From Liolophura sinensis (Eukaryota; Mollusca; Polyplacophora; Chitonida; Chitonidae), in contig NC_088306.1 of NCBI RefSeq assembly GCF_032854445.1, positions 25,641,764-25,705,763 of the forward strand: 64,000 bases of DNA. The letters are read 5' to 3'. Of the stretch, positions 7,901 through 62,173 are shown piece by piece. How positions within the stretch are numbered: the stretch's first letter is position 1; the number at the start of each line of letters is the position of its first letter. The notes beneath the pieces are model-generated. The model ran no database searches. It saw only the letters and a program-made list of their open reading frames with translations, and was not told where the DNA came from. A program made the translations under genes and the position numbers.

Positions 7901-10900
7901 CAGAACTCATGAACCTCATGACATACGAAAATGAAACTACACCAGACAGTGATTGCAGTTTCTAGGTTACCTTCTATTTTTGATGTCCTGTGATATTTTC
8001 CTTTTATGCCTATTTTTATTACCGTACCTTCTCAATAATTTCAGACACATTTTTAGAAAATGTATACCATGATGTCTTGCCGGGCTGTTGTCTTAAGTCT
8101 TACCCTCTCTGTAGGGGATTACTAGTAGTTGATCAGTGACAGTAGTTCACATCAGTGAGCCTCATCAGCTTGACAAGACGGGGAGAAACACTGCCAGGTT
8201 TTGAAAAGATTTAACTTTTTGTGTTATTGGACGGCTGTTTTTTAATCATGCCAGTGTCGTTTAAAACTCTGCACACATTGGTTGACCTATATGTGCTACA
8301 AAAAACGTTTTCGGAATTTTTCGCTTGTAACATGTGGGTACAGTGCATTTGTAACATATGTATTGATTAGCTGTGTTTAAACGTCGGCCAATACAATCTC
8401 TGGTTGGATAGTCGTGACATTGTCCAAATACATGGAAATCTTGGCTTGGAATCTTATTAAGAACACCAATGTTAGTAGTTCGTGTCCATTCTTGGGACGT
8501 GGCCAGAGGCGCCTGGTGTTTGCTCCTGCTGATCAAGCCCTGTTTAAAAGCTTTAATTGCCACATTAAAAATGAAACCTGGTTCAACAGTTTTTTTCATA
8601 ATCATTACGTACATTAGCCATTTTATGTACCGATGATTCGAGAAAGGTCATTAAAAATATATTATCAGTGGGATATGTACAAGCTGTGAATTTGTAGAGT
8701 ATTTTAATCATTCTTTTTGTTGTGAGTTATCTGGTATTAATTAGTAAAACCAGTACCTGTAGCTGGTGTTGTGCATGGGATCTTGATTTTTGTAATCCAC
8801 TTACACATTTGCATATTTTGTCTCACTCATGTTCAGCTGAGGAGTTTGTCAAGATACTTCTGTTTAATTGAAGTCGAAAAAAACTGAGTAAGGTTTCCAA
8901 GGAAAGGATTTTGAGGTAGTGGGCAATGTATTTACTAAGACCGTGCCACACTCTGCATCATTCGTAACTTTTGAGCATACCTTTAGAGTGATTGGTAGGT
9001 AAATACACATGGGAATTTGATAATTCTTCCCTTTAGACATTGAACAAATGATATGTATGGTAGTCTCTCACGTCCCAGATCTGCCAGATGAAATCTACAT
9101 GGTTTGTATTCTTGTCGGGAACTGGGAAATCAGTACTTTCATCCTTTCAGTTGGATCTAACAACTTGAACATTGTTTTCTGAGCGAACTTTGTGTACATA
9201 TTCCCTGTGAAATTACTGATACCATTCACAGCAAAACATACTTCTCAGAGCTCGATATTCTCTCAAGGTCGTCTGGTATGTATATCCGTGGGTTTTGAAG
9301 GCATTTGTGTGGTAAAGTTTAAAGGCCGGTTTAGCTAATTTAGTGACATATACACATGAACGTACATGTATGACTAACTTTTTCTTGAATTCCCGGGGTA
9401 ATGTGTTGCAGACTATCTTTTTAAAATTAATCTAAAAAGAGACAATCATGTGAATATAAAGCCTAATGCACTGGGGTGTTGAATGCTTCCCTGTAAATAA
9501 TGCCACACAACCGTTGACTTTAAATATTGGATAGCACAGTTTGTAGAACACAAGCCAGAAAACAGCATGGTATGGGTTTGGGGAAGGGAAATAGCGAAGA
9601 TATATTCTCACTAGATTGGTGTTCCGGTTTCAATATTTTTATATTTTTCTGTCTTTTAAACAAGTGCTTATACTGAAAAATGATATTGTGAGTTGCTGTG
9701 TACAAGCTGTCAGGAAAGGCTGGCTTTATGGGCCAGCTGGCACGGCGATATCACCCACAGTGAGCGCTTCACAGGAGACTTCTCTGATATACTTACTTTC
9801 ATTGCGTCTCAATTAGTGTCTCTAATTATTGAGAAGGTATGGTAACAGGAAGTGTGATTGGATCTTAAGTTTTCACTGACCATAGCCTATTCAGACGAAC
9901 CAGACTGCAATGGCTGATAGACTTCATGTTAATTTTAATAAATTTTCAGCGCCAAAGGTAGAATTCTGTGACATTCATTGCCACACTTTGGAAAGTTTAT
10001 CATTAACTTTGGCGCAATCACCCAGGAGGCCCCCACCAAAGCTGTCCCTGTGAGTTCATGTCCAGCACATTCTGGCTTCCTCTCTGGCTGTACTTGGGAA
10101 GGTCTGCCAGCATACTGCGGATAGTTGTGGGTTTCCCTGGGTACTGCCTGGTTTCTTCCATCCGTAATGCTGGTTGCTGTTGTATAAGTCATATATTCTT
10201 GAGTACAGCATAAAACACCAATCAGATAAATATGTAAGTAACTAACTTTGGCAATTTTTTTCTTAATTTTCACTTAATTTTCCTCCACGTGTAAAGATTG
10301 TCTGAAATGGTATAAGTGAAAAATTCTTGAGTGTGACGAAAAAAGAAGAAAAATTATGCATGCTTGGGATTTAATGTTGTACTTAACAATTATTCAGTCA
10401 TATGACGACAAGAAAAAAAAACAAAAGTAGAGCATACATGTATGTATGTATTTGCAGTATGAGTGCAATGAATGGCAAGAGGCCCTGGACATACTGGACA
10501 TGGTACAGAATGACAACATTCCCAACCCAGGCTCAGTGCTGGAGGAGTCTCTCAACATCACAGATGTGGACAGCGGTCTGCCTCTCATGGTAAGGGCTGA
10601 TGGGTCACTCTGTATGGATGTAGACTGCAGTCTGCCTCTCATGGTAAGGGCTGATGGGTCACTCCGTATGGATGTGGACTGCGGTCTGCCTCTCGTCGTA
10701 AGGACTGATGGTCACTCTGTATGGATGTGGACAGCGGTCTGCTTCTCATGGTAAGGGCTGATGGGTCACTCCGTATGGATGTGGACTGCGGTCTGCCTCA
10801 CATGGTAAGGGCTGATGGGTCACTCTCTATGGATGTAGACTGCGGTCTGTCTCACATGGTAAGGGCTGATGGATCACTCGGTATGGATTTAGACAGCGGT

Positions 10901-12365
10901 CTGCCTCACATGGTAACAGCGGAAGCACACAAATTCTGGAAATCTTCTCGGTCGACCATCTCTGATTTTCATGAAATTTTTATCTGCAGGTACTTCACTT
11001 ATGTTAAATATGAAGGCAATGTTCTGACTGGTTTTATTGGCAGAGGCTCCACTTTTCATTCCAAGAAATTCAAAACTGAAGGAAAAGCAAAGTTCAGCTT
11101 ACATACCTACTATTGACAACATAACTTATTTTCCAGTGCCTGTAGTTATCAAAGAATGCTCATGCAAAATTTCAACCATTTGTATAAAAGCAAGACTAAG
11201 ATATTACTGTCTGAAAAAGCTAAAAAGCCAACTGCAAGAGAATACTTTAAAGAGCATCCTATAAACTGTTGGGAATATAAAAAGTACCTTTTTCATCATA
11301 CATATGTAGGTACCTGCAGTTAACATTTAAAAAATTTCAGAGATGATCAACACAGGGCCTGTCAGTGGTTTCACACAGAATGACCCTAATAGGGAATGTT
11401 CGGGGATTCTGGTGGGCTAAAGGGAGGGTGAGGGTAAGGGTAAGGGTATGGTCTTTGCTCATTCAGGTTATAACCCCATCCCTTCATAGTTGAAATATAA
11501 TCCAGAAGCTTTGCTTTACGTATTGTTTTCCAGTACAGTACATCAAGAATTTCCTGCTTCCATTCCTCTCAGGGCCATGTTGGCAATAAGTGTTAAACGA
11601 TGCTCTTTCGTGTACTCTGTCATGAAGTTCACTGCTGATCACACTAGCCTTATACCCTCATGACATGTGTCAAATATTAAGATTTTCTGATAAGAAAGTA
11701 GTCCAACTTAACCAAAAGCTGCAGAGTGGTCCTGGAAGGTTGATGATACGATCAGAATTAATAAAAAGGGTGTCATTTAAAAAGCACAACACTTCAGATA
11801 AAATACAATCAGTGACATATTTTTGAGTATGGTGTGAAACAACAATCAGTCTGTAATGTTAAAAGACAAGTCTAGACCCAAAGTAGACCAATCTATCATT
11901 CTAATACTGTCCATTGTTTTGATATTAAGGATAGAAAGGTATTTCATATTAACTGATTTCTCTTATTTTGATTTCAGATGGAAAATTCTGTAAATCTTCT
12001 CCGTGGCAAAATTTACGAGGCAATGGACAACAGGAATCTGGCTGTGGAGTGTTTCAGAGAAGCACTGCGTCAGGATGTCTACTGTTTCGAGGCCTTTGAT
12101 CTTTTAGTGAATCATCATATGTTGACAGCTCAGGAAGGTGAGTGGAGTTACGTCCCTTTACTTTGTTGAAACTCTTCTGCATGTTATGAAAAACAAAGCA
12201 TTCAAGTCGACAATGGGCACTAACATTCAACACATTTTTTCATCATATGTGTGGGCTTCGTGAAATTATGCAGTTTTTGTGTTTAGGATTTCAATTTAGA
12301 ACTCAAACTATCATGGACTCTGGTCGTAAAGGTGTGAGTAACAAATCTGGTATGTGATATATACA

Positions 12366-12423
<58 letters not shown>

Positions 12424-15400
12424 GCCATCTGTTGTCAAGGAAAATTATGTAGTCGTAATCTTGAACATTACAGCAAAGGCAAGAAAAGGGAAAGCAAACC
12501 AAATCAGATCTGGTCAACCGTTTCAGGGGTATAATAAATAAAATAGTTTTATTAATGACTTTCAAATAAATAAATTTCCTCTGTAGTTGTATGTTGGAAG
12601 ATCTGCTAGCATTGTGGTTGTGGTGATGGGGTTCCTCCCATCATAATGCTGGGCACCATTGTATAAATGAAATATTCTTGAGTATGGCTTTGTGGTTGTG
12701 GTGATGGGGTTCCTCCAGTCATAATGCTGGGCACCATTGTAGAAGTGAAATATTCTTGAGTATGGTTTTGTGGTGATGGGTTTCCTCCCATCATAATTCT
12801 GGGGGACATTGTATAAGTGAAATATTCTTGAGTATGGTATTGTGGCGGTGGTGATGGGGTTCCTCCCATCATAATGCTGGGCACCATTGTAGAAGTGAAA
12901 TATTCTTGAGTATGGTTTTGTGGTGATGGGTTTCCTCCCATCATAATTCTGGGGGACATTGTATAAGTGAAATATTCTTGAGTATGGTTTTGTGGTGATG
13001 GGTTTCCTCCCATCATAATTCTGGGGGACATTGTATAAGTGAAATATTCTTGTATGGTATTGTGGCGGTGGTGATGGGGTTCCTCCCATCATAATGCTGG
13101 GCACCATTGTAGAAGTGAAATATTCTTGAGTATGGCTTTGTGGTTGTGGTGATAGGGTTCCTCCCATCATAATGCTGGGCACCATTGTATAAGTGAAATA
13201 TTCTTGAGTATGGTTTTGTGGTGATGGGTTTCCTCACATCATAATGCTGGGCACCATTGTAGAAGTGAAATATTCTTGAGTATGGCTTTGTGGTGGTGGT
13301 GATGGGTTTCCTCCCATCATAATGCTGGGCACCATTGTAGAAGTGAAATATTCTTGAGTATGGCTTTGTGGTGGTGGTGATGGGTTTCCTCCCATTGTAA
13401 TGCTGGGCACCATTGTATAAATGAAATATTCTTAAGTATGGCTTTGTGGTGGTGGTGGTGATGGGTTTCCTCCCATTGTAATGCTGGGCGACATTGTATA
13501 AGTGAAATATTCTTGAGTATGGCACTGTGGTGGGGTGATGGGTTTCCTCCCATCATAATTCTGGGGGACATTGTATAAGTGAAATATTCTTGAGTATGGT
13601 ATTGTGGCAGTGGTGATGGGTTTCCTCACATCATAATGCTGGGCACCATTGTAGAAGTGAAATATTCTTGAGTATGGCTTTGTGGTGGTGGTGATGGGTT
13701 TCCTCCCATCATAATGCTGGGCTCCATGGTAGAAGTGAAATATTTTTGAGTATGGTATTGTGGTTGTGGTGATGGGTTTCATCCCATGATAATGCTGGGC
13801 GACATTGTATAAGTGAAATATTCTTGAGTATGGCTTAAACAAGCGATCAAATAATAAATAAATAAATAAAAACTAACAATGTAAATATATATTTTGAATT
13901 TTATTGACATGTGCTGGTTTTCATTTTTTATGGACAGTCACTGTTAGGAATTAGACTTAATAAACATAAGAAACATCTTAGGATGTATTTCATAATTTTT
14001 TTTTTTTCACTCCGTGTAAAATCCCTGGCAACATGTTGCCTGCTACAAGAACAAAAACAAGTTGCTGCATGAAAGTTTTATACTTTTGTGCTGCATAATT
14101 TGGGTAAATGTATATATGTGCATGTAAATACATATGTACCAGTACATAAAGAAATAAAGAAGGTTAAAAAAAGGTAAAGTTACATTGATGAGAATGGACT
14201 TGGTTAAGAACAAAAAAGTTCTCAAATTTGATTCAATGGTTGGTGTACATTTCATTGTTTATTTGTTCTTTCATTGTTATTTCTTGTACAGTTGACAATG
14301 TTGATGGTTTTAATAAGTGTATATTAGGCTAGCCCACATACATGGATAAGTAAAAAGAGTCATGTTTACCATATTCTGGTTGTTTCAATTAAGAGTTGTT
14401 TCATTAGTCATGAGTTACCTGCGGGCGAGAGGTATTGATGGATTATAGTGATGATTAAGGAATGATCAGCCAATGGATGTAAGCATTAAAAATTTATATA
14501 GTTTGAACTTTTCTTATTTGATAATAGCTATTTGTGTTTACATGTAGCTTTGAGGTGTTAAAGAATTGTTGAAAGATGGGAATAAAAGAATTCAAGGGTT
14601 TTAGACATTTTGTAAAAGTGACTAATCAAATATGGGAATTTTCCTCCGGTGGGGTGATTTCAGAATTTTATGGTTAAAGGTTGAAAAGTAAAAGCAACTG
14701 ATTTCAGCAGAAGAGGTAATTGCTCATGGGTTTTTTTTTTTTTTTTTGAAAATTCACACTTTTTTCCGACTGCGAATGGACACGATCATACATTGCTTGT
14801 CTTCTGGTGCACTGCAGACAGGTACTGGCATATTGCTTGAAAATTCTTCTAAAATCTGTCCACATAGATGTGCGATGTGTACCATGTGCGTTCTGACGAA
14901 AAAAATCAGACGATTTTTACTTCTATAGTAGTGTTACTTGTGCAGAAATCATTTCAGTAAATTTATGTCATTTATTTACCTGATATTTCGTTATTAAGTA
15001 ACATTTACTATTACCTTGATTACCTCATGCTTCTTATGTGTTTTCACAGGTGGCTGAAAATGGTTTATTATTATTGTTATTAGAAAGATATGCAAATGGG
15101 TCCTGAAAATAAAAGATTACTGTACTCTATAGGTGGTTTACAATGACAGCCATCTTTGATGTAAGATTGAGTATTGCTGACTGAGTGTCTGTTGTTAGCG
15201 GTGTCATAAGCTGGGCAGAGGCCCTTGGCTGGTAAGGGCATACATGGGCAGTGTAAACTAACTTACATCAAAGATGGCTGCCATTGCAAACCTTCTATTT
15301 TACTGAATGTTTTCAAGTGATTAAGGTAATGTACATGAAGTATACGAATTGAAGCTTCTAAATGGCCTGCCACACCACTAGCTCGCCACTAGCACATCAC

Positions 15401-30400: not shown

Positions 30401-33400
30401 GCTGGGTCTTTATACTACATGTATATGTTGAGTCATGCATGGAAAGCATCGCAAGCTGTTTTTATTTTTTTATTTTTTTCACCTTGAAGAGACAACCTTT
30501 TTGTGGTTTTCACAAGTATGGGTATGTAATCAGATTGGATAGACACTACATGTAGTTTTTGCTTTCAGTACGACAAACCAGGAGACATGAAAATTCCTGC
30601 ATCTCTGAGCTGTCTACAAACAAACCTGGACCTAGACGTGTCCCTTGCTGAACGCCATTATTACAACTGTGATTTCAGACAGTGCTACAAAATTACATCC
30701 AGGTAAGTTCTAGTTATGAGTATATCCATGTTTATCCAGGTGAAAACAGTCAGTGAGATCAATATTTTCAGTGATCATGGTGTTTATATCTAAACATGGA
30801 CCAAGTTCTTAAATATAATCCAATTTTGGTGCCTTGGAGAGTCGTTACTCAGGAGGTTAGCCAGAAACGTGAGAGCGGATGTCCAAGCCCTTCTTGAGAC
30901 CTATTTGTTTTTCTCCCACGTTGAGTAGGTACATCGATATGTTAGCTGGTTAGCCCTGTATCATTAGTGTGGAAGGCGTGTGTTCAATTGAGTTGTCTCT
31001 CTTGTCCATCAAAGGGTAATGTTGCTCAGAGCAGATGATAGCCATGCAAATACATTTAGTCCTTGAGCTGGGCAAGTTATTGTTTACAAACTGCCCAGTT
31101 GATCAGTTTATCAAGATGTCACATGGTAGTGGGTTTGCCCCGGGCTCAGCCAAGCCTCCTCCCACTGTAACACTGGCCGCTGTTGTATAAGTGAAATATT
31201 CTTGAGTATGGCCATAAAACTCAAATAAATAAGTAAATAAATAAATAGGGATTTGACATACTCGGTAGTGTGTTGTAGGATTTTGTTAGTGAAATGTCCA
31301 CAGTAGAAACATTTACATGTTGTTGTCCTACGTCTTCTGGATAGCAGACAGATATTAATTTGGATCTGTCTGACAAACTTCCAGTCATACCATTACACTT
31401 TGCAGACATTTGTTATGTAGTAAGCGCTCCAAATATTGTCAGGTTTATGACCAAAAAAACATTTGTTTGAAAACCAAGCCAGTTTGATCTTGGACATAAG
31501 TTTAGTATATTTTAGTAATGAATTTAGTGATTTTCAGTGATATAAATTCTACCAATTTACTTCTTGTTTCATGTTCCAGTGTCCTTGACAAGGATCCGTA
31601 CAACAGTCAATGTTTACCTCTGCATGTAGCTGTGTTAGTGGAACTAGGAAAATCAAATAGTAAGTGTTTAAACATTCATGTTAATTCTTTTTTGTACATA
31701 TCTTTTTTAGGCGTAATTTGACCGTCACTAAAATGAGAGGGTCAGTCAAGAGGAAATAGAGATTTTGTAGACATTTACTTGGAGATAAAATAAAAAATAA
31801 GAAATCAAACTTCTGTCATTAACTTAGGGTAAACTTTAGGGAAAACTTTAGGGTAAGGTCTTGTTTAGAGGGTTGGTTGAGTTACAGCCAACTAACCTAT
31901 TTTAAGAATGGTCTTACATAAGTTTTTTTCTTTTAAAAGTTTGATTTTCTCAAATGGAATATAGAAAATTTACTAGACTCTGCTGAAGTTCAGAGGTTTT
32001 ATCTTGGCACTGTACAACTTATTTACAATATCAGTGTCTAATGGTTGTCTTTGTTGTATGAATTTAATGGAAAACTTGTCTTTTTCTTTTCAGTTTTATT
32101 TTACTTAGCCCATAAACTTGTGGATATTTACCCGAACAAAGCAGTAAGTTGTCATTTCTCTTGTCATTTTACTTCATGTGAAAGATTTTCACGATTCTGT
32201 GCCTTCAATGGTTCCAGGATCTTTAAGAGTGGGAGTAAACAGTAGGATGAATCAAGTAGTCTTACATGACGTTTATAGATTACCTGCCTTCTACCAATAT
32301 GTCACACACCTTGAACTTGCTCTACAGGTGAAAATCCTCATGACAGTTTCTGCCATTTGCATGATGTAAAATGGCAGAATCTGAGTTGGATTTAATCAGT
32401 CTTCATTAAAAGATGTTTATTTTCGTATGCATTGTAAACCTGACCACTGTTCTGTAAGTGAAGAATTCTTAGGCATGGCATTTATTTATTTGATTGGTGT
32501 TTTACACTGTACTCAAGAATATTTCACTTATATGACAGCGGCCAATATTATGGTGAAAGGAAACTGGGCAGAGCCTTGACCATGCACAGGCTGCTGGCGG
32601 ACCTTCCCCGCCATTTTGTCTGGAGAGGAAGCCAGCATGAGCTGGACTTGAACAAAGCAACGGCATTGGTAAGATACAGTGTAGGTTAACCTCGGAGGTC
32701 ACGAGAGGTACATGTAGCTTTTCAGGGTCATCCAACAGTAATGTCCTATACCTCCATATTGGACTGGTTTATCTGAATGTACAACTACCGTACGAGAATA
32801 CATACAACACCAGCCATTGTGATGTCATGTCTCTCCATGTCTACACACATAAAGATGGGTGTATTAGGATAGAATTGAAGAATTCTTTCATCTGGAAGGC
32901 AAAGAAAATACTATGTCAGATAAAAGACCATTAAACACTGTCCACAAAGATAGTTATATTGTTTTTTTATATATATTTTTTTCAACCCAGTAACGTGCAC
33001 TTGAAACATTGGATTTTATGGTGGCCTTTTCTTATCATATTGGGACCAGTAATGTCACATGACATTTTTGCAACTTAACACACGTAGATGGCTAGATTTC
33101 CTCATTTTGCATATACATATAGATCTATGAATGCATTTACTGAAAGGACCTTGAAATGAACTATTTCAAGTGAAAAATATAGATGTGACATCACTGATAC
33201 CCTCTGGGTCACTACAGACCAGCATAGAATCTGGATGTCACGTCACTGATACCCTCTGGGTCACTACAGACCACCGTAGAATCTGGATGTGACATCACTG
33301 ATACCCTCTGGGTCACTACAGACCAGCGTAGAATCTGGATGTAACGTCACTGATACCCTCTGGCCTGGGTCACTACAGACCACCATAGAATCTGGATGTC

Positions 33401-36400
33401 ACGTCACTGATACCCTCTGGGTCACTACAGACCAGCATAGAATCTGGATGTGACGTCACTGATACCCTCTGGGTCACTACAGACCACCATAGAATCTGGA
33501 TGTGACATCACTGATACCCTCTGGGTCACTACAGACCACCGTAGAATCTGGATGTGACATCACTGATACCCTCTGGGTCACTACAGACCACCGTAGAATC
33601 TGGATGTGACATCATTGATACCCTCTGGGTCACTACAGACCACCGTAGAATCTGGATGTGACATCATTGATACCCTCTGGGTCACTACAGACCAGCATAG
33701 AATCTGGATGTCACGTCACTGATAGCCTCTGGGTCACTACAGACCAGCATAGAATCTGGATGTGACGTCACTGATACCCTCTGGGTCACTACAGACCAGC
33801 ATAGAATCTGGATGTGACGTCACTGATACCCTCTGGGTCACTACAGACCAGCATAGAATCTGGATGTGACGTCACTGATACCCTCTGGGTCACTACAGAC
33901 CAGCATAGAATCTGGATGTGACGTCACTGATACCCTCTGGGTCACTACAGACCAGCATAGAATCTGGATGTGACATCACTGATAGCCTCTGGGTCACTAC
34001 AGACCACCGTAGAATCTGGATGTGACATCATTGATACCCTCTGGGTCACTACAGACCACCATAGAATCTGGATGTCACGTCACTGATACCCTCTGGGTCA
34101 CTACAGACCAGCATAGAATCTGATGTTTTAAAACCATTGTACTTGGGTGGAAAAATTCTCAAAAAAAACAAATCAAACTATTTTCCTGAACAGTGTTTAA
34201 TGGTATGTTATTTGATATATACCAGTGCTTCATTTTAGTGTTTTCAGTGCCTTTAATTAGCAGTAATCTGTCAGTTTATCCCCTTTGGCAGGTGTCCTGG
34301 TTTGCTGTGGGGTGTTATTACTATCTGATAGGGAAATACCAGCCCGCTAGGAGATATTTAAGGTAAGCTCTTTCAATCATCCTCGGTTTTGCGTTGCCCT
34401 TGATGTATTTGATTTGCTATGGTTTTTTCACCTGTCCAGAATTGGCCAAGGGGTATTGTTGTAGGTGTTTGCCTGATCCACCTTTCTGTCCATTTCTTTG
34501 TGAACACTCTGTCTGTTGAATGCATGTAGCCAGTTTTATCATACTTCTACCACTTTGGACACTTATGCATTTTGAAGAATATTCTTTGACTTTTGCAATT
34601 GGTTTTAGGTCATTTTTATAGGTTATTGAAGTTATATTTTGTGACAGGCTGGTTAACACAAATGACTCTTGAAGTCTTTAAAGCATATATGAAAATGTAC
34701 TGGGAAAGGAAGAGTATGGTTTATAGGACAATGAAGAAAGATATATGAAAAAATGGAAAATATATATTTTATTTTATGATTTTTAATAAAGGCTCTTTTT
34801 ATGTATATTTTCCATCACTAATCGGGAATATTTGGATATAATGTAATCGCTAAACTTACTGGAAACACTGGACCAGCTTAGCACCCCAATTCAGGCATCC
34901 CCCCCCGCAAAAGTTACTCCACTTATACCAAACGTGTCACTAATCATGTAGACGAACCCTGTTGTTTTTCAGTGACCTTGTCTTCATTTTTCTTTCAGTA
35001 AAGCGACATCACTGGATCGATCGTACGGCCCTGCCTGGCTTGCCTTCGGACATTCCTTCGCCACAGACAATGAGCATGACCAGGCCATGGCAGCTTACTT
35101 CACAGCATCTCAACTCATGAAAGGGTAAGCTTCCAAATTTCATATTTGAAAGGCGATCTGACGGCAAAAAACTCAATCACCGTTAACTTCAAATTCCCAC
35201 ACTACAGGCAAGAGGACATTAGTCAACATTTCTGTCCTGTTTTTCAGTGATGATCCAGTTCACAATTGACAGATATTGGTCCTAGACTGGAGCATCATTA
35301 ACATTGGTTGGGTCCTTATCCCATTATACACCATATGTGTGCATAAAATTTCCTTCAAATCCCTAAGTAGCTGATGGACAGAGAATTGCATTAAGGGAGG
35401 TAATCAGTTAGTTCCAATGTGGTGTTCAGTTCCAGCAAGCTCATCAAGTCGTCATTTGCAGCAGGGTTTCCAATTCCAGTGATATGTTCGATTCCAATTA
35501 GATCTTCAATTTCAACTAGATCTTTAATCGTCATAAATGTCCGAAATTTCTGGTAACTGAGATAGAGAGAGGCCTTGAGCCAAGTGAGTCAAACAAAGGA
35601 CCTCTGTTTCAAGAAAATGATGCTAGTGTTGTCTTTCCCTGTGCGGTTCTAACATCAGCCTCAGAATGATTGAAATCCAAACACTCCTTTCAAAATGACT
35701 TGGCTGTAAATCAAATAAGGTCACACAGTGGCTTTGTTTAGCTCTTTCATTGTTTGATGAGGTAGTTGTTCTGTCCTGTATAGCATCTTGAAATGCGAGG
35801 AGCGACTTTGTAACTTTAGTGGGATGAAATTTTCTTTGTTACTACCACATTAATATGACCAAAAATGATGTACAAGGAAAATCTCCCTTTTGATGTTTTT
35901 TCTGTGTATCAAGTGCCATGTTGCAAGTTTCAGTAAACACACTCACCTGTACATCACCTGTTTCTCCATTTTCTGCTTAGGTGTCATTTACCAGTACTAT
36001 ACATAGGTTTGGAATATGGACTGACTAACAACGCTAAACTAGCAGAGAGGTTCTTCAGCCAGGCTCTGAGTATCGCTCCCCAAGATCCCTTTGTCCTGCA
36101 TGAGATGGGGGTCATAGCCTTCCAGAATCATGAGTAAGTATTGGTTACCTACATAGTTCTCCAGCCAGGCTCTCAGAATAGCTCCATAAGACCCTTTTGT
36201 CTTGTTTGAGATGGGGGTCACTGCCTTCCCGAATCATGAGTAAGTATTTGTCACCTTTGCAGAGGTTGTTGGTGCCCTAGCTGTAGAAAACAGGGCCCTC
36301 ACCAAAAAAAAAAAAAAAATCAAAGGCCTTTGTGCCCTCACTGCAGAACAAAAACAAGACTCTCCTACCATTGTCTAGTGTATTCATGTACTATTTATTT

Positions 36401-39400
36401 ATTTCTTTGATTGATTGAGGTTATATGCTGTAGTCAAGAATATTTTACTTGTTCAACTGTGGCCAGCAAAATGGGCAGAGGTTGGGGGGAATGCTGTTCA
36501 GGCACTATGTATTTATCTAGTGCAAAAGCTAACATAATGAGAAAGCACAGGTACTCTACATAAACTGAGAAGACACATTGTTGATGTTCCAATATTATAA
36601 GGATATAAGAAAGTTTTTTTTGTCATCTTCAGGATATTAAAACACTTGACTTTGTACATACAGCTGTTGGCAGATTGATTGGGCCTGGAATCACTGTTAC
36701 TGTGTGCACAGGTACATTTATGTCATTGATTTATTGAGACTTCTGTCGTGAAGTGAGAACTCCTTCAGGCCTTGAATTACTATAAGGTGTTGTATCATGG
36801 GTTATAGTTTCATGTGCTCCCTCATACATGTCATCAGTTTGTGACCCAAGAATTTGTTTTGTTTTCTATCTTCAGTTGGAGCATTGCTGAGGGTTATTTT
36901 AAAGAAGCTCTGAAAAAAATCCAGTGTGTGAGTCATGAGATTACAGCAGAGAAATGGGAGCCTCTCCTCAATAATCTGGGACATACCTACAGGAAACTCA
37001 AGTGAGTACCAGTAGGGAGCCTCTGTTGGCGATGAGGCTAGTGTGCCACCACGGGGCAATGACCCAGGAACCTCTCCTCAATAATCTGGGACATACCTAC
37101 AGGAAACTCAAGTGAGTACCAGTAGGGAGCCTCTGTTGGCGATGAGGCTAGTGTGCCACCACGGCGCAATGACCCAGGAACCTCGCCTCAATAATCTGGG
37201 ACATACCTACAGGAAACTCAAGTGAGTACCAGTAGGGAGCCTCTGTTGGTGATGAGGCTAGTGTGCCTGCACGGCGCAATGACCCAGGAACCTCTTCTCA
37301 ATAATCTGGGACATACCTACAGGAAACTCAAGTGAGTACCAGTAGGGAGCCTCTGTTGGCGATGAGGCTAGCGTGCCTGCACGGCGCAATGACCCAGGAA
37401 CCTCTCCTCAATAATCTGGGACATACCTACAGGAAACTCAAGTGAGTACCAGTAGGGAGCCTCTGTTGGCGATGAGGCTAGTGTGCCACCACGGCGCAAT
37501 GACCCGGGAGCCTCTCCTCAATAATCTGGGACATACCTACAGGAAACTCAAGTGAGTACCAGTAGGGAGCCTCTGTTGACGATGTGGCTAGCGTGCCTGC
37601 ACGGCGCAATGACCCAGGAGCCTCTCCCCAATAATCTGGGACATACCTACAGGAAACTCAAGTGAGTACAAGTAGGGAGCCTCTCCTCAATAATTTGGGA
37701 CATACCTACGGGAAACTCAAGTGAGTACCAGTAGGGAGCCTCCTTTGCCTATGAGGCTAGTGTGCCTGCACGGCGCAATGACCCAGGAGCCTCTCCTCAA
37801 TAATCTGGGACGTACCTACAGGAAACTCAAGTGAGTACCAGTAGGGAGCCTCTGTTGGCGATGAGGCTAGCGTGCCTGCACGGCGCAATGACCCAGGAAC
37901 CTCTCTTCAACAATCTGGGGCAGGCGTACAGGAAACTCAAGTGAGTACAAGTGGGTGAGGGGGGGGGGGGCCTCCGTGGCGGATGGGGTTAGCGTGCCAG
38001 CGCGCCAGCGCGGCGTAATCACCTAGGAGCCTCTCTTCAACAATCTGGGGCACAGGTACAGGAAACAAGTAAGTACAGGTAGGGGTCCTCCATGACCGAC
38101 GGGGTTAGCACACCATCATGTCGCAATTACCCAAGAGCCTCTCTTCAACAATCTGGGACACAGGTACAGGAAACAAGAGAGTACAAGTAGGGGCCCTCCA
38201 TGGCCGAGGGGGTTAGCACGCCAGCGCAACGCAATGACCCAGAGTGCGAACGCGGCGCAATGACCCAGAGTGCGAACGCGGCGCAATGACCCAGGAGCCC
38301 CTCCTCAACAATCTGAGGCACACCTACAGAAGTGACTACAAGTAGGGAGCCTCCGTTGCCGGTGAGGCTAGCGTGCCCAGCACGGTGCGATGTCCCAGGA
38401 GCCTCTCTTCAAAAATCTGGGGCAGGCGTACAGGAAACTCAAGTGAGTACAAGTAGGGGGCCTCCATGGCCAAGGGGGTTAGCACGCCAGCGTGCCGTAA
38501 TCACCCAGGAGCCTCTCTTCAAGAACCTGCAGTACACCTACAGGAAACTTAGGTGAGTACAACATACATGGTTGATTTCCTCTGTATATTGACTGGTCTC
38601 TTATTAACAATCTGGAGTGCACCTACAGGAAACTCAGGTGAGTACAACATGCAAGTGCACTGTGTGTACTCTTCCTTGTGCTCAGTTTCATGTGGACATA
38701 GCCTGGTTTTGTTGTGTACATTGTCAGATGACTTGTACGTTGCTTGATTTTCTCTGCATATACAGGTATGGCCTGGTTTTCTTGTACGTTGCTTGATTTC
38801 CTCTGTGTATACATGTATGGCCTGGTTTTCTTGTGTGCGTTGCTTGATTTCCTCTGCATATACATGTACTGTATGGCCTGGTTTTTTTGTGTACGTTGCT
38901 TGATTTCCTCTGGGTACATGTATGGCCAGGGTTTCTTGTGTACGTTGCTTGACTTCCTCTGCATACATGTATGGCCAGGGTTTCTTGTGTACGTTGCTTG
39001 ATTTCCTCTGTGGGTTTCTTGTGTACGTTGCTTGATTTCCTCCGTGTATACATGTACTGTATGGCCTGGTTTTCTTGTGTACATTGATTGATTTCCTCTG
39101 TGTATACATGTACTGTATGGCCTGGTTTTCTTGTGTACGTTGCTTGATTTCCTCTGGGTACATGTATGGCCAGGGTTTCTTGTGTACGTTGCTTGACTTC
39201 CTCTGCGTACATGTATGGCCAGGGTTTCTTGTGTACGTTGCTTGATTTCCTCTGTGGGTTTCTTGTGTCTGTGTCTACATGTATGACCTGGTTTCTTGTG
39301 TTTTTTCCTCTGGTCACTGACTCGTTTTCTGTTGTACATTACTTATGTAGCTTGATTTCCTCTGGACATTGCCTGTTCTTCTTGTGTACGTTGATTAGTG

Positions 39401-42400
39401 TACTCTCTACATGTGAATTGCATATTAATTTGTTTTACTGTTGCTGGTGGTTTTCTTGTGTACATTCATGCCTTGTCTTTTAAGTTAAATTTTGTATAAC
39501 AGCAGTTTGAAATAAACAAAAAAGGTTGTTACCCTTAAAAGATATTCTCCTGCTTCATGTTACACAACTTTCTAAATGCCACTTAAAGAAGATCTGCATA
39601 TTATTGCAAACCACCATAAAGTTGGATCTATTCTTTACATTGTACATATGCTCAAGGCTGAGGGATTTCAAGTGTTTATTTGTTTTGTTTTGTTTGGGTT
39701 TTTTTGTACATTCATGCCTTGTTTTCTAGTGCACATTCATGCCTAGTTATCTTGTGTACATTCATTGTGTTTTGGAGGGGTGAGGTGCTCTGTGTACATT
39801 TATGCCTGGTGTTTTGTGTTCAGCTATGGGACAAAACCCCTGACTTAAAACCACAAATGCACTAGTGGCCTGAACAGGTCATTTATGAGGAGACAAATTG
39901 AACCAGTGAGGGCACTCTTTAAACTAAATGTGTACAAGTATTAGTGTGTGTTGTTTCTTGTATTTTTTCAGAAAGTATGAAGAATCCCTGGAATACCACA
40001 AACACGCCCTGGTCTTATCACCTCAAAATCCCTCCACATACTCAGCAATAGGATACGTGCATGTGATCATGGGAAATAACATGGAGGCTTTGGACTACTT
40101 TCATAAGGTATCCACACGTTGTGCTCAGTTGTTAGATAATTACAATGCTTTTAGACATCATAGAACATCCGATTGAAAATAGTCCCATGCATGTAGGTGA
40201 TAAAGAAAATGGAGGCTTTGGACTACTTTCAGAAGGTATCCACACAAGGTGCTCAGGTGTTAGATAATTACAATACTTTTAGACATCATAGAACATCCGA
40301 TTGAAAATAGTCCCATGCATGCAGGTGATAAATAACATGGAGGCTTTGGACTACTTTGAGAAGGTATCCACACAATGTGCTCAGGTGTTAGATAATTACA
40401 ATACTTTTAGACATCATAGAAAAGCTAATTGAAAATAGTCCCATGCATGCAGGTGATAAGTAACATGGAGGCTTTGGACTACTTTCATAAGGTATCCACA
40501 CATTGTGCTCAGGTGTTCGATAAATACAATACTTTTAGACATCATAGAAAAGCTAATTGAAAATAGTCCCATGCATGCAGGTGATAAATAACATGGAGAC
40601 TTTGGACTACTTTCATAAGGTATCCACACAGTGTGCTCAGGTGTTAGATAAATACAATACTTTTAGACATTATAGAACATCCGATTGAAAACAGTCCCAT
40701 GCATGCAGGTGATAAATAACATGGAGGCTTTGGACTACTTTCATAAGGTAGCCACACAGTGTGCTCAGGTGTTAGATAAATACAATACTTTTAGACATCA
40801 TAGAAAAGCTAATTGAAAATAGTCCCGTGCATGTAGGTGATAAAGAAAATGGAAGCGCGGGACTACTTTCATATGGTATCCACACATTGTGCTCAGGTGT
40901 TAGATAATTACAATACTTTTAGACATCATAAAACATCCGATTGAAAATAGTCCCATGCATGTAGGTGATAAAGAAAATGGAAGCATGGGACTACGTTCAT
41001 AAGGTATCTACACGTTGTGCTCAGGTGTTAAATAATTACAATACCTTTAGACTACAGAGAACATCTGATTGAAAATAGTCCCATGCATGTAGGTGTTAAA
41101 GAAAATGGAAGCGTGGGACTTTTTCCAAAAGGTTCATGGACAAGTAATTCTAGGTATGAAAGAATAGCTGATTGAGTCCGATGAGATACATACCACCATG
41201 AAAGTTTTGGACTATATTTGCAAGCTACCAATGTCTTTTCAATGTCTAAAGCACTTATTTCATGTAATTACTATTAAAATGATGTGGATTTTTTGGTTGC
41301 ACTAAAGATGCAAGCTTCATAAAAACTCTACACATTATTTCTTTACACTCCATAGTTCTCTAACTGGGCCCAATAGCACAGTTGGTAGAGCATCCGCTTT
41401 GGGAGCAGTAGATCTAGTGTCAGTCCCAGGTCGGGTCTCACATAAGACTTTAAAAGAGGAAGTTGTAAATTCTTCGCTTGGCATTCAGCGTTAAGGGGTT
41501 AGTGCAAAGACTGGTTGACCTGTATCAGTATAATGGCTCGGGTAGTGTGGCTTACTTGACTGCGGTAAGTTGTCTCAGTGAAGCAGCACTAGACAAAAGA
41601 GCGGTGGATATCCGTCCTGCGACAAGGAGGCACATTACATACACTCTAAGGACTCCTTTGTCGTCATATGACTGAAAAATTGTTGAGTACGACGTTAAGC
41701 CCCAAGCATTCACTCACTCCATAGTTCTCACAGATGGTTTCAAAGTATTGATCACATGGGTGTTTGAAAAGGTTGACGAATTAGGGTAGATAAGTCCTGT
41801 AGAACAATTATAATTGATATATTGCTGATAAATACTTTGTAATACATGTAGCTTTGAACCTAGGAAAGTCCTGTGAAATTTCAAACCTATTCAAAGCCTA
41901 TGTGCTTTCTTTCAAGGCACTGGGTATTCATCGCGATGATGCGTTCTCCACGACGATGTTAGACCAGGTGATGGAGTCACTGATGAAGGAAATGTCATCC
42001 TTTGAAGGTAATAAAGTGGGAAGGTCTCTCAGCAACCTTTAGAGCGTCCGCTTCGGGACCGGTAGATCCAGGATCAATCCTTGATCGAGTCACACCTAAG
42101 ACTTTAAAAGAGGAAGTTGTAACTTCCTCGCTTGGCGTTCAGCATGAAGGGGATAGTGCAACGACTGGTTGACCCGTATCAGTATAATGCCTCAGGCGGG
42201 GCGGCTTGCTTGCCTTCGGTAAGTCGTCTCAGTGAAGCAGCACGAAATAAAAGAGCGGTGGAAATCCGTCCTGCAACAAGGAGGCACATTACACATACAT
42301 GCACCCTAAGGATTCCTTCGTCGTCATATGACTGAAAAATTGTTGAGTGCGACGTTAAACCCCAAGCACTCACTCACTCTCTCAGCAACCTACGGATGGT

Positions 42401-44062
42401 CATGGGTTTCCCGTGGGCTCTGCCCGGTTTCCTACCACCATAATGCTGACCGCCGTCACATAAGTGAATATTCTTGGGTATGGCATAAAACAGCAATCAA
42501 ATAAATAAACAAATAAATAAATTGAAGGTAATACAGCCTATTTATTGGTGTTTACACTAACAAGTTCTCGGTGTTTGACATGCTTGTGAAATGAACACGG
42601 CCCAGTTGTTCGAAAATGTATTAGCTGACACTGGTATAAAGTCACATTTTATATTTAATTTTTTAGCCATATTCAGTCGCCAGTGCAGTTGTCAAAAGTC
42701 AGAGTATAACAATAGCAGTTTTAGTTCATTTGTAATAGAATGTGACAAAAATTTTTTTCAGGCTTAGCACAAAATTGAAGACTTGGTTTAAAGTTAAATC
42801 TGGTATTAAGTCTTAAACCAGTTTTGAACAACCCTGCCCAGAACCCTTGATTATTTTGCCTACCATGGACATGTAGCACAACAAAGTTATAGCCTTAGTT
42901 GATTGCATATGTACATCCCGCTGCGTTGTTTTCATGTTATGTAGGTTAACTGTCATGACAACAGAGCATATTAAATAATGCCAGAGGAATGCCTTGAGTC
43001 ATGTATTACTATTTAAGCATTTGATTGAACAGTTAGAATAAAAAACACTGACTGAGGTAAAACAACAAGAGGCTGTATTTCTCCAGTTATGTGTTCTGTC
43101 GTCATCGTTACTGCTCTGGTTTGGCTCTCTATGCTGTACGTCTTTAATTATGCATGTAATGTGACTACACTGTCAACACATGGTATTAAAAGACATTGCT
43201 CTGGTAGTTTCTATCAATTTAGTCTATGATAACCTATATGAAACCAAACAATTTTAGGGTTTTAAGGATAAGAAACAACTGTCAATCTCCTGCTCTGAGA
43301 CAAATTTTCACCCAGTCTACTTGTAAAACACATTGTAAAAACTTTGACTTAAGCGTCTGTATCCTCATTCCAGTATATTTTTACTTAAGAAGAAATCAGA
43401 TAGAATGAACAAGAAACTTTGTCTTAGCATTCAACTCGGGCAAGAAGTTGTGTATTTAATTTTTTTTTTTGTCAGTATGATATTTGCTGAAATACTACGC
43501 GCATCCATGCTCAGTAGCGGGAAGCTGTAGTCAGTTAATCTGTATTATATATAATATATATTATTATATATATATATAATTATATATTATTATATATAAT
43601 ATGTATTCAGAATATCAGACTTCTCTAAATCTTCAACCTTTTCAACCACAGAAGCACTTGCTTCAGTGGAATTTATGCCTACAATTATTATGAAAATGAC
43701 GCTAAGAACGATTTGTTTGTGTCCGTAAAGATGCAAGCTTCATGAGACTGTGCAAATAATTTCTCTACTTTCCATAGTTCTCTCAGAATGTTATAAAATA
43801 TTTGGTTGCAGAGACATTTGGAATGGTTGAAGAATTAGGGTAACTGTATTTCATAACGTCGTATTGTCCAGCCTGTGTTAATGCCTCGGACTCTGTTTAC
43901 TTGCCAGAAGTACCTGATACACTACCCACGTTTGAATGTACCAGTAACCTGGAGTTGTCCCAGGCGGACGTCTCTGTGTCCCTGGATGAGATTGACACCA
44001 CCACGGGCACAGCAGACACCAGTAGTATGATTATGGAGGTGGAAATGGATGCTTCAGACTGA
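4974..44062 (+). CDS. CDC16: Anaphase-promoting complex subunit 6 (CDC16), 17 exons
   Basis: Exons: 4974-5090, 6075-6129, 7059-7156, 7648-7686, 10458-10589, 11978-12137, 29701-29795, 30569-30702, 31580-31659, 32094-32143, 34292-34362, 34999-35124, 35981-36133, 36876-37001, 39972-40107, 41917-42007, 43908-44062 (TGA 44060-44062). All introns are GT-AG and every phase joins, giving 605 residues, close to the roughly 620 of vertebrate CDC16. Diagnostic blocks include YHRASNLIRSKKLDK (exon 3), DVYCFEAFDLLVNHHMLTAQE (exon 6), LAERHYYNCDF (exon 8), VSWFAVGCYYYLIGKYQPAR (exon 11), HDQAMAAYFTASQLMKG (exon 12), EYGLTNNAKLAERFFSQALS (exon 13) and STYSAIGYVH (exon 15). These form the TPR superhelix of this core APC/C scaffold, which drives ubiquitination of cyclins and securin. 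The first 26 or so residues precede the usual family start (N-L-K-R-L-R). The last exon is an acidic, Ser/Thr-rich tail. Five exons have tandemly duplicated 3' ends (see the repeat entries). Confidence 0.95.
5091..10457. other. CDC16 introns 1-4
   Basis: AT-rich intron sequence interrupted by exons at 6075-6129, 7059-7156 and 7648-7686. Apart from a SINE-A copy at 10030-10240 I see no gene or structured repeat. Open frames here are short and lack family-like composition. Confidence 0.6.
10030..10240 (+). repeat. SINE-A, 5'-truncated
   Basis: It contains 'gtgagttcatgtccagc', 'ggcttcctctctggc', 'gtgggtttccctgggt' and 'tattcttgagtacagcataa', all matching the SINE-A consensus. It lies in CDC16 intron 4. 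Confidence 0.85.
10563..10930 (+). repeat. 54-bp array over the end of CDC16 exon 5 and its splice donor
   Basis: Units start near 10563, 10617, 10671, 10724, 10778, 10832 and 10886. Each carries the last 27 exon bases (gatgtggacagcggtctgcc and so on) and about 27 intron bases starting 'gtaagggctgatgg'. The donor GTAAGG is kept in most copies. Unit 3 is one base short. Because 54 is a multiple of three, the frame stays open through the second and third donors. Confidence 0.95.
12351..12424. repeat. TA dinucleotide microsatellite
   Basis: A long run of alternating T and A with minor interruptions, in CDC16 intron 6. Confidence 0.95.
12600..13836 (+). repeat. SINE-tail-derived satellite, about 76-80 bp unit, about 16 copies
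   Basis: Each unit has 'tttcctcccatcataatgct', then 'gggcaccattgtagaagtga' and 'aatattcttgagtatggc', followed by a variable 'ttgtggtggtggtgatggg' linker. The first three blocks are the 3' half of SINE-A. Two unit types alternate ('ataatgctgggcacc' and 'ataattctgggggac'), implying block-wise amplification. Long minus-strand open frames across it (up to 207 codons) follow from the repeat and are not genes. Confidence 0.95.
13840..15126. other. CDC16 intron 6, no recognised feature
   Basis: AT-rich sequence with poly-T tracts near 14000 and 14735. I see no gene, RNA gene or clear repeat. Confidence 0.5.
15131..15294. mobile_element. MITE-like element with about 33-bp terminal inverted repeats
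   Basis: The left arm (15131-15165) and right arm (15262-15294) are near-perfect inverted copies sharing 'cagccatctttgatgtaag'. The element is about 165 bp, non-coding, and flanked on both sides by 'ctat', a possible target duplication. Confidence 0.7.
16193..24111 (-). CDS. Secreted collagen-like C1q-domain protein, three exons
   Basis: Minus-strand exons: 24111-23568, 17735-17541 and 16497-16193 (stop), with GT-AG introns and matching phases, giving 347 residues. An acceptor 'ttaatctgcag' just before the first coding exon (24127) implies an untranslated upstream exon. Residues 1-21 are a typical signal peptide (hydrophobic ILAILTLLTVTWA). Gly-X-Y stretches follow: a short one (GEKGEPGVG) and a longer one ending in GPPGPPGPPGPP near residue 178. 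The C1q domain runs from about residue 216 (LRVAFSVALT) to the end and includes PVPGAYYFTYHI, GYTGVSNSAVLKLEKGD and the terminal FTGYLLYPE. Such proteins trimerise and act as soluble pattern-recognition lectins or extracellular matrix factors. The gene lies entirely in CDC16 intron 6 on the opposite strand. Its exact ligand cannot be told. Confidence 0.9.
17222..17397 (+). repeat. SINE-A, 5'-truncated
   Basis: It carries 'ctctggccatacatgggaag', 'gtgggtttcctccgggct', 'gtcatataagtgaaatat' and an 'aaataaataaataaat' tail. It lies in the second intron of the C1q gene. Confidence 0.85.
17742..23567. other. C1q gene intron 1 (also within CDC16 intron 6)
   Basis: About 5.8 kb of AT-rich intron. It holds a weak SINE-A tail (about 18530-18580) and a three-copy 49-bp repeat (21694-21840). 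I see no further exon on either strand. Confidence 0.5.
21694..21840. repeat. 49-bp tandem repeat, three identical copies
   Basis: The unit begins 'gtttaccgtatgtttatagc' and ends 'gtttcacttgaa'; copies start at 21694, 21743 and 21792. The perfect identity suggests recent expansion. Confidence 0.95.
24630..24900 (-). repeat. Diverged SINE related to SINE-A
   Basis: On the minus strand it has a B-box-like 'gcaagttcaaatccagctc', followed by 'cagtttcctccacccatga' and 'gctgtcctatgagtgat', the same block order as SINE-A. The right part lacks the usual tail, so this may be a separate subfamily. Confidence 0.55.
24970..26880. other. CDC16 intron 6, no gene seen
   Basis: It holds a 60-70 bp near-duplicate around 25487-25600 ('ctgtaccctgggaacaaggt' and 'ctgtaccttgggaacaaggt') and a decayed about 40-bp periodicity at 25745-25935 ('ggtatccaaactgacctttt' variants). 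No coding exon was recognised. Confidence 0.5.
26900..27168 (+). repeat. SINE-A, full length
   Basis: The head 'ggggcctccgtggctcagtt' includes a pol III A-box-like stretch, and 'gtgagttcaagtctagctc' includes the B-box. The body and the 'aaataaataaataaa' tail are intact. Flanks share 'tcactaa' on both sides (10 of 12 bases over a longer stretch), a likely target-site duplication. Confidence 0.95.
27190..28860. other. CDC16 intron 6, no gene seen
   Basis: AT-rich sequence. The part from about 28606 to 28800 has an 'atttatttatttgatcattg' start and a SINE-like look in the minus sense, but it does not align clearly with SINE-A or SINE-B. Confidence 0.4.
28875..29140. repeat. Low-complexity tandem repeat (tccatctggtgatgttcttcc)
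   Basis: About ten units of 24-30 bp built from 'ccatctggtgatgttcttcc' with variable 'ttcctt' spacers. A 91-codon minus frame through it is an artefact of the repeat (Glu/Arg/Thr rich). Confidence 0.9.
29474..29630 (-). repeat. SINE-A, 3' half
   Basis: Reverse complement of the SINE-A tail and mid-body ('atttgattgttttacacc', 'tttttcacttatacaatggc', 'aacccacaaccatccacagg'). It lies 70 bp before CDC16 exon 7. Confidence 0.8.
31118..31250 (+). repeat. SINE-A, 3' half
   Basis: Contains 'gtgggtttgccccgggct', 'cctcccactgtaacactgg', 'tgttgtataagtgaaatatt' and an 'aataaataaataa' tail, in CDC16 intron 8. Confidence 0.85.
32477..32690 (-). repeat. SINE-A, partial
   Basis: Begins 'tttatttatttgattggtg' and runs through 'gtactcaagaatatttcac' to 'agccagcatgagctggac', the inverse of SINE-A without its 5' head. 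It lies in CDC16 intron 10. Confidence 0.85.
33182..34121. repeat. 52-bp minisatellite in CDC16 intron 10, about 18 copies, with CRE palindromes
   Basis: The unit reads 'gatgtgacatcactgatacc', 'ctctgggtcactacagacca', 'gcatagaatctg'. The 'gatgtNacNtcactg' part varies (TGACATCA, CACGTCA or TGACGTCA). Five units carry the perfect cAMP-response palindrome TGACGTCA (near 33450, 33763, 33815, 33867 and 33919). One unit has a 'ctggc' insertion near 33360. Confidence 0.95.
36047..36260 (+). repeat. Tandem duplication of the CDC16 exon 13 3' end and donor
   Basis: The last about 85 bases of exon 13 with its donor and intron start (36047-36155) recur at about 36157-36260, sharing 'cagccaggctct', 'tgagatgggggtca' and 'aatcatgagtaagtatt'. 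The second copy has substitutions and a small deletion that brings a stop into frame, so it is not a functional exon. The donor GTAAGT is kept. Confidence 0.9.
36391..36490 (-). repeat. SINE-A, 3' fragment
   Basis: Diverged inverse of the SINE-A tail ('tttatttatttctttgattg', 'gtcaagaatattttacttg', 'gtggccagcaaaatgggcag') in CDC16 intron 13. Confidence 0.65.
36958..38640 (+). repeat. 110-bp array over the end of CDC16 exon 14 and its donor, about 16 copies
   Basis: Copies of the last about 45 exon bases ('gagcctctcctcaataatct', then 'gggacatacctacaggaaac' and 'tcaa') with donor 'gtgagtacc' start at 36961, 37071, 37181, 37291, 37401, 37511, 37621, 37681 (short spacing), 37790 and 37900, then more diverged at about 38030, 38139, 38298, 38402, 38511 and 38600. 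The intron part ('gaggctagtgtgccaccacg', 'gcgcaatgacccaggag') resembles the SINE-A head. The frame meets TGA directly after the first donor, so only splicing at 37001 keeps the protein. Confidence 0.95.
38640..39310 (+). repeat. About 55-bp tandem repeat in CDC16 intron 14, about 12 copies
   Basis: The unit is 'tatggcctggttttcttgtg', then 'tacgttgcttgatttcctct', then 'gtgtatacatgtactg', with deletions in some copies. Degenerate units continue to about 39830. Open frames of about 200 codons on the minus strand follow from the repeat. Confidence 0.9.
40075..41215 (+). repeat. 128-bp array over the end of CDC16 exon 15 and its donor, 9-10 copies
   Basis: The exon-derived part (start 'aataacatggaggctttgga', ending 'ctactttcataag') with donor GTATCC recurs at 40081, 40209, 40337, 40465, 40593, 40721, 40849, 40977 and 41105, every step 128 bp. 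A tenth, weak copy lies at about 41200. The intron part ends 'gtcccatgcatgcaggtgat'. Unit length is not a multiple of three and downstream copies contain stops. Confidence 0.95.
41361..41714 (+). repeat. SINE-B, full length, with 15-bp target-site duplication
   Basis: The tRNA-like head 'agcacagttggtagagcatc', 'cgctttgggagcag' resembles a tRNA-Pro (TGG) arm. The body includes 'cgcttggcattcagcg' and 'ctggttgacctgtatcagta', and the tail 'actgaaaaattgttgagtac' ends in CACTCACTC. 'cactccatagttctc' lies on both sides (41346-41360 and 41715-41729). It is in CDC16 intron 15. Confidence 0.95.
42014..42521 (+). repeat. 5'-truncated SINE-A inserted at the exon 16 donor, split by a SINE-B
   Basis: SINE-A starts 'aagtgggaagg' directly after the donor, is interrupted by SINE-B (42039-42377), then resumes 'acggatggtcatgggtttcc' to its 'aaataaataaa' tail. 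The outer target duplication 'ttgaaggtaata' (42002-42013 and 42522-42533) includes the last exon bases and the GTAATA donor, so a second donor copy lies after the insertion. Confidence 0.95.
42039..42377 (+). repeat. SINE-B nested in SINE-A, with 14-bp target-site duplication
   Basis: Close relative of the copy at 41361 but lacking about the first 25 bases of the head. The 14-bp 'tctctcagcaacct' is present at 42025-42038 and 42378-42391, and the flanking halves of SINE-A rejoin across it. Confidence 0.95.
42540..43907. other. CDC16 intron 16 remainder
   Basis: AT-rich. It includes an AT palindrome (43540-43606) and, at about 43728-43850, a segment paralogous to intron 15 sequence around the SINE-B insertion site ('aaagatgcaagcttcat', 'ccatagttctc', 'gaattagggta'). 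No gene was seen. Confidence 0.6.
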
Positions 44063-44690
44063 TCTGAAGGATGAGGTGGAAATGGACACTTCAGACTGAT
44101 CTGAAGGATAAAGTAGAAATAGACGCTTCAGACTGATCTGAAGGATAAGGTAGAAATAGACGCTTCAGACTGATCTGAAGGATGAGGTGGAAATGGATGC
44201 TTCAGACTGATCTGAAGGATAAAGCAGAAATAGACGCTTCAGACTGACCTGAAGGATGAGGTGGAAATCGACGCTTCAGACTGATCTGAAGGATGAGGTG
44301 GAAATGGATGCTTCAGACTGATCTGAAGGATGAGGTGGAAATATATGCTTCAGACTGATCTGAAGGATGAGGAGGAAACGGACGGTTCAGACTGATTTGT
44401 ATAATGAGGAGGAAATGGACGCTGCAGACTGATCTGAAGAATAAGGAGGAAACGGACGGTTCAGACTGATTTGTACAATGAGGCGGAAATGGACGCTTCA
44501 GACTGATCTGATGAATAAGGAGGAAACAGACGGTTCAGACTGATTTGTGGAATGAGGAGGAAACGGACACTTCAGACTGATTTGTAGAATGAGGAGGAAA
44601 CGGATGCTTCAGACTGACATGAAGGATGAAGTAGAAATAGACGCTTCAGACAGATCTGAAGATTGAGGAGTCGATAGACGCTTCAGTCTG
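44029..44690 (+). repeat. 37-bp array over the end of the CDC16 terminal exon and stop codon
   Basis: About 17 units of 'gaggtggaaatggatgcttc', 'agactgatctgaaggat'. The first unit is the coding end of CDC16 (EVEMDASD-stop) and the following ones are 3' UTR. The first steps are 37 bp. Units drift downstream to about 44690, with scattered copies to about 44900. Confidence 0.95.
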
Positions 44691-44994
44691 ATTTGAAGAA
44701 TGAGAAGGAAAAATGGATGCTTTAGATAGATTTGAAGATGCGGTGGAAGTGGACACCTGGGTAGAAACTTGAACACTATTGAAATTTTAAGATTGAGATG
44801 GAAATGGATGATTCGTTGATTTGAAAAAGGAGGTGGATATGGATGTGTCAGATTGATTTGAAGACGGAGGTGGAAATGGACACCTGGGTAGGATCGAAGA
44901 GAACATGTTTTATTACAAGATTAAAGTTTAAATGGACACCTCTGTTAAAGACTTGTAGCTGTCATATAAGTGAAATATTCCTCATTAATTGTCA

Positions 44995-46964: not shown

Positions 46965-47170
46965 TAACCAATGTGGTCGCTGCGAGTTCAAGTCCTGTTC
47001 ATGCTGGCTTCCTTTCCGGCCGTCTGTCGGGAAGGGTCTGTCGGCAACCTACGGATGGTCGTGGGTTTCCCTCGAGCTTTGCCCGGTTTCCTCCCACCAG
47101 AATGCTGGCCGCCGTCGTATAAGTGAAATATTCTTGGGTGCGGCAAAAAACACCAATCAATGAAATCAAA
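46965..47170 (+). repeat. SINE-A, 5'-truncated
   Basis: Clear match from 'accaatgtggtcgctgcgag' to 'acaccaatcaatgaaat'. The preceding 46815-46960 resembles the diverged SINE variant at 24630-24900. Confidence 0.85.
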
Positions 47171-62113: not shown

Positions 62114-62173
62114 TTTGGAAATGGCTTCGGGTTAGGCTGTATTTTCTGACAAATTTGTTATAGGCAAGTGATT

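Follow-up and report, generated by a model that had tools for sequence, protein, structure and literature searches.

The Adh3 gene is reportedly where arrays at exon boundaries were originally described in amphioxus. For amphioxus Adh3, TnC, the globins BflGb6 and BflGb9, and PGBD5, two reports describe "mirages", minisatellite-like copies lying over exon-intron boundaries, with units of 10–160 bp, the splice signal in many of the copies, and both 3' and 5' boundaries affected (PMC3087553, PMC3902484). Undisturbed normal splicing, length polymorphism and somatic instability are further traits of the amphioxus mirages. Minisatellite arrays at exon-intron boundaries are likewise described for human genes in segmental duplications, where they can alter splicing (PMC2812944). 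A related process is intron gain by tandem duplication of a segment containing AG/GT, known as the Rogers model and illustrated by a potato RdRp case (PMC4974935). Here we describe arrays at exon borders in the CDC16 (APC6) gene of the chiton Liolophura sinensis, located in a 64,000-bp stretch of contig NC_088306.1 (hereafter the window), and estimate how often such arrays occur at exon borders of three protein families in the same genome. The assembly was first assigned to L. japonica; its authors later corrected the species to L. sinensis (PMC12441733).

The predicted protein matches human CDC16 (chain 5g04_J) over residues 25–562 with E=1e-230. Its exons were placed by hand using GT-AG borders, and the border positions in Table 1 are predictions. 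The open frame encodes 616 aa, or 617 aa when the exon-17 acceptor at 43872 is used. The C-terminal ~50 residues match human CDC16 weakly, and the last exons are therefore less certain.

Table 1. The CDC16 gene and its tandem arrays in the window (a slash marks the exon-intron border).
Feature	Position	Strand	Unit and copies	Basis
CDC16 (APC6) gene, 17 coding exons, start to stop codon	4974..44062	+		Hand-mapped exons, open frame, human CDC16 match
Exon 5	10458..10589	+		Acceptor tttgcag, donor atg/gtaagg; open frame and CDC16 match
Exon 13	35981..36133	+		Sequence, exon map
Exon 14	36876..37001	+		Sequence, exon map
Exon 15	39972..40107	+		Sequence, exon map
Exon 17, last coding exon; TGA at 44060-44062	43872..44062	+		617-aa open frame with this start
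Exon-5 array	10563..10916	+	54 bp, 6.6 copies	TRF, sequence
Exon-13 array (duplication)	36050..36256	+	106 bp, 2.0 copies	TRF, sequence
Exon-14 array	36957..~38560	+	110 bp, later copies degenerate	TRF (36957-37952, 37999-38294), sequence
Exon-15 array	40074..41120	+	128 bp, 8.2 copies	TRF, sequence
Exon-17 array	44036..44754	+	37 bp, 19.4 copies	TRF, sequence
Intron array, no exon crossed	12612..13836	+	78 bp x 16	TRF
Intron array, no exon crossed	33182..34126	+	52 bp x 18	TRF
Intron array, no exon crossed	38734..39268	+	unit ~49 bp	TRF

Tandem copying of the ends of exons 5, 13, 14, 15 and 17, proposed in the first-pass annotation, was confirmed both by TRF and by the sequence itself, with units of 37–128 bp. 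The first unit of the exon-5 array consists of 27 bp of exon end followed by 27 bp of intron, a unit length that is a multiple of 3. The remaining arrays also start within their exons: 84 bp before the donor in exon 13, 45 bp before it in exon 14, where the donor caa/gtgagt is repeated, and 34 bp before the donor aag/gtatcc in exon 15. The exon-17 array begins 24 bp ahead of the stop codon, and a related stretch follows it at 44795–44880. Some of the copy numbers originally proposed for these arrays have shifted, from about 16 to 13 matched stretches for exon 14, from 9–10 to 8.2 for exon 15, and from about 17 to 19.4 for exon 17.

When all 58 TRF rows are considered, arrays lie over 5 of 17 exon ends (four donors and one stop-codon end) and over none of 17 exon starts; five other large arrays are wholly intronic. 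The 10 merged arrays account for 16.3% of the gene. When 10 arrays were placed in CDC16 at random, the mean number of exon-end arrays was 0.44, and five or more were seen in 0 of 20,000 trials, a p-value that is too favorable, since CDC16 was selected only once its arrays had been noticed. The genome (609,464,459 bp in 632 contigs) was searched with two of the five units, those of exons 14 and 15, which gave 13 and 8 matched stretches, respectively, all at their own loci. A dispersed-repeat origin of these two units is thereby ruled out. Differences in unit sequence and length, together with the restriction of the exon-14 and exon-15 units to their own loci among the matches reported by the genome search, uphold the view that the arrays arose as independent events.

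Several other features of the window and of the assembly were recorded. Downstream of CDC16, the minus strand carries a zinc-finger gene (60170–62128), with an uninterrupted frame of 653 aa and two C2H2 zinc finger matches near the C-terminus. Also downstream are two arrays, at 51884–52375 (87 bp x 5.7) and 48371–48846 (51 bp x 9.5), with a donor-like GGTAAR in each unit; no exon was found for either, and more than one frame stays open across several units of the 87-bp array. A peptide-like stretch (IYLIGVLRRTQEYFTYTTAASIMVGG) recurs on both strands, at 3237–3493, 32385–32686, 47002–47265, 49601–49936 and 56226–56544, which suggests a dispersed repeat family. Elsewhere in the assembly, contig C99 contains seven COX1 matches ~15.5 kb apart (8348, 23885, 39496, 54929, 70450, 85975 and 101504) and is probably a mitochondrial concatemer made during assembly, beside a separate mitochondrial contig of 15,209 bp (C632). 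The mitochondrial contig can be read through under the invertebrate genetic code, and its gene order fits molluscs, corresponding to the ancestral molluscan order.

To estimate the frequency of border arrays, exon matches were collected from three protein families only, paralogs included. The 271 matches listed comprise 81 from myosins, 132 from kinesins and 58 from SNF2 proteins; 214 of them were taken, chosen roughly by E-value with most long frame-merged matches left out, and 36 of 45 regions were fetched in the second batch. The final sample consists of the 205 matches flanked on both sides by 400 bp or more (63 myosin, 96 kinesin and 46 SNF2), at 167 loci. By hand inspection, arrays cross 11 of the 205 3' borders (L065, L056, L098, L044, L100, L085, L027, L115, L028, L135 and L152), a count that includes the short arrays of L100 (2.4 copies, 78% identity), L135 (2.0 copies) and L028 (2.5 copies). 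Five of 205 5' borders are crossed (L059, L129, L094, L073 and L069), where L129 and L069 reach only 9 and 10 bp into the exon, and L073 was missed by the automatic border rule. These counts correspond to ~5% of 3' borders and ~2% of 5' borders. Two further candidates for 3' cases, L061 and L074, were dropped as their exon borders are unclear. The units of the 3'-crossing arrays are 26–124 bp long. No array was found inside an exon or engulfing one among the 205 matches. Around the first 165 matches, arrays make up 12.8% of the intron sequence at distances above 100 bp from the exon match. The absence of arrays from exon 5' ends, noted in the first-pass annotation, is therefore true of CDC16 and does not hold in this sample.

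The number of crossings expected per 205 borders is 1.9 when calculated from unit lengths and the arrays located 120–400 bp off the exons, and 4.0 when calculated from arrays in the nearest 120 bp. The 11 crossings of 3' borders exceed both values (P=6e-6 and P=0.003, respectively), whereas the five crossings of 5' borders are marginal (P=0.048 and 0.38). Expressed relative to the array density in introns, the excess is 2.7–5.7-fold at 3' ends and 1.2–2.6-fold at 5' ends. Within 90 bp of the exon, the flanking introns on both sides also have more array edges than expected (10 vs 4.1 and 10 vs 4.4). A fully automatic count gave 10 of 161 3' borders (3.7 expected, P=0.005) and 4 of 173 5' borders (4.0 expected, P=0.56). 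The proposed enrichment at exon 3' borders thus stands when compared to intron density; when compared to 5' borders within the sample alone, the difference is not significant (11 vs 5, p=0.2). Requiring at least 15 bp of exon changes this comparison to 11 vs 3 (p=0.06). With the CDC16 arrays pooled, it becomes 16 vs 5 (p=0.027), or 15 vs 5 (p=0.04) when exon 17 is left out, a modest difference. CDC16 itself is an outlier with respect to the sample (5/17 vs 11/205, p=0.004; 4/16 without exon 17, p=0.016), and is an extreme case of a wider feature.

We think, with moderate confidence, that these exon-border minisatellites are of the amphioxus "mirage" kind, that is, random local tandem duplications which splicing tolerates. 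A short stretch (here mostly 26–128 bp) that happened to span an exon end would be duplicated in tandem, and the copy lying outermost toward the exon would still form the true exon end. If the spliceosome keeps to the donor of that copy or, at 5' borders, to the acceptor copy adjoining the exon, the mRNA is unchanged and the additional copies are absorbed into the intron. Growth and homogenisation of the array on the intron side may then proceed via slippage or unequal crossing over. Border duplications would be frequent because this genome makes many intron minisatellites. From the open frame alone, we infer that the first donor of the CDC16 arrays would be the one in use, and the intact 616/617-aa frame obtained with the first-unit donors counts in favor of tolerance. 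The lack of arrays inside or around exons also fits a process in which only copies removable by splicing survive. Random breakpoints predict longer units in arrays that cross a border, and the median unit is indeed longer in crossing arrays than in intronic ones (63 bp vs 36 bp, p=0.003). The place of the border within the unit looks random (fractions 0.24–0.94, KS p=0.26, n=15). Most of the anatomy is accounted for by random duplication with splicing as a filter. The excess at 3' ends is not, and it counts against a pure tolerance model since such a model predicts borders no richer in arrays than introns.

This excess is a reason to consider a second explanation, which we regard as possible though doubtful, in which the duplications are seeded by mutation linked to donors or exon 3' ends, through R-loops, paused polymerase, nascent RNA bound by U1, or repair of splicing-linked breaks. 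GC content was rejected as the cause of the border enrichment, as it predicts only a 1.15-fold effect, and both the five ends and no starts affected in CDC16 and the pooled comparison point in the same direction. Across the whole genome, tandem pairs of the donor motif CAGGTAAGT spaced 30–60 bp apart number 594, compared to 253 for the reversed motif. However, the single motif is also about twice as common as its reversed form (9,837 vs 4,862). The share of independent loci that are arrayed is 2.0% for the motif and 1.3% for the reversed motif (1.5-fold, p=0.34), based on array loci on contig C1 (23 vs 8) collapsed by hand and a contig-wide number of loci extrapolated from the first megabases. 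Among the independent loci in the first 100 matches listed, clustering is seen in 6 of 46 for the motif and 7 of 57 for the reversed motif (p=1). Acceptor pairs (TTTTCAGGA, 214 vs 56 reversed) are not interpretable because single-motif counts are lacking for them.

G-skew, the test for R-loops, is 0.18 in crossing arrays and 0.08 in intronic arrays (p=0.33; p=0.07 against background). This result, the roughly uniform position that borders take within units, and the per-locus motif comparison all speak against the donor-anchored process suggested in the first-pass annotation. The arrays at 5' borders and the non-significant difference within the sample alone also weigh against a process specific to exon ends. 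We would only tentatively entertain the stronger form of this idea, that chiton exon 3' ends are hotspots of array birth through transcription- or splicing-linked mutation, with gene architecture steering where minisatellites arise and introns being steadily re-made out of exon ends as a result. Such hotspots would perhaps extend to other animals with very active minisatellites.

Selection for donor redundancy, which had also been proposed, appears quite improbable to us as the reason why the arrays persist. According to this explanation, repeated donors would be retained because they back each other up in splicing or allow regulated use of alternative exon ends. GT is intact in 68 of 73 units from nine arrays (exon-14 units were scored by eye) and in all 6 units scored in the exon-5 array. 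Units agree slightly better at the donor columns than at the other exon columns in most of these nine arrays, although the difference is small and involves few units, so that it lends the idea weak support. The 54-bp unit of exon 5 would allow a later donor to keep the frame at first, but units of 106, 110 and 128 bp would shift it. In L085, the later units have weaker donors (GTAATG vs GTAAGA), and GT is lost in 4 of 13 units of L115. Arrays over acceptors and plain intron arrays exist as well, which also counts against this explanation. Separately, we note that splicing of exon 5 at a second or third donor (10563–10751) would add 18 aa per 54-bp unit in frame, giving candidate protein variants.

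The least probable explanation is that the pattern is an artefact of assembly or of wrongly placed exon borders, or a chance result of singling out one odd gene among many. It gains from the choice of CDC16 after the fact and from its outlier status, but is already largely refuted by an independent gene set that shows the same pattern and by the PacBio HiFi reads of the assembly, whose mean length of 8,347 bp (PMC11068029) means that reads should span arrays of at most ~1.6 kb.

Boundary minisatellites have been described, in the literature found, for single genes of amphioxus and for human genes that are duplicated. In the mollusc examined here, such arrays are common. Their presence at ~5% of 3' and ~2% of 5' sampled borders turns the genome as a whole into a natural experiment. 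Numerous donors of equal quality may stand next to each other in hundreds of exons, making the rule of donor choice directly testable, and whether exon ends steer the birth of tandem duplications becomes testable as well. The arrays also provide raw material from which introns can grow or be gained. Both their origin and the choice among copied splice sites are thus open to study across a genome.

The literature searched, consisting of titles and abstract openings for part of the matches, yielded no description of boundary arrays in molluscs. The closest likeness is to the amphioxus mirages. As in amphioxus, the chiton units span the exon-intron boundary at both 3' and 5' ends, fall within 10–160 bp, and carry an intact splice signal in many copies (68/73); the exon-14 and exon-15 units are specific to their loci. 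The host is a mollusc, whereas all mirages in the papers found belong to cephalochordates, a difference of distribution and not of mechanism. Unlike the amphioxus cases, the chiton arrays come with a rate estimated over 205 exons of three families and include five arrays in a single gene, and they are known here from DNA alone. The human arrays in segmental duplications are similar in being minisatellites that sit at exon-intron boundaries; they belong to recent paralogs in which the transcript was often changed or introns were created, whereas chiton CDC16 is single-copy and conserved with its frame unchanged. With intron gain under the Rogers model, the chiton arrays share the tandem duplication of a segment carrying a splice signal, the extra copy becoming intron, but they lengthen the ends of existing introns. 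We therefore file the chiton arrays as the known mirage anatomy in a new phylum, accompanied by a first estimate of its frequency.
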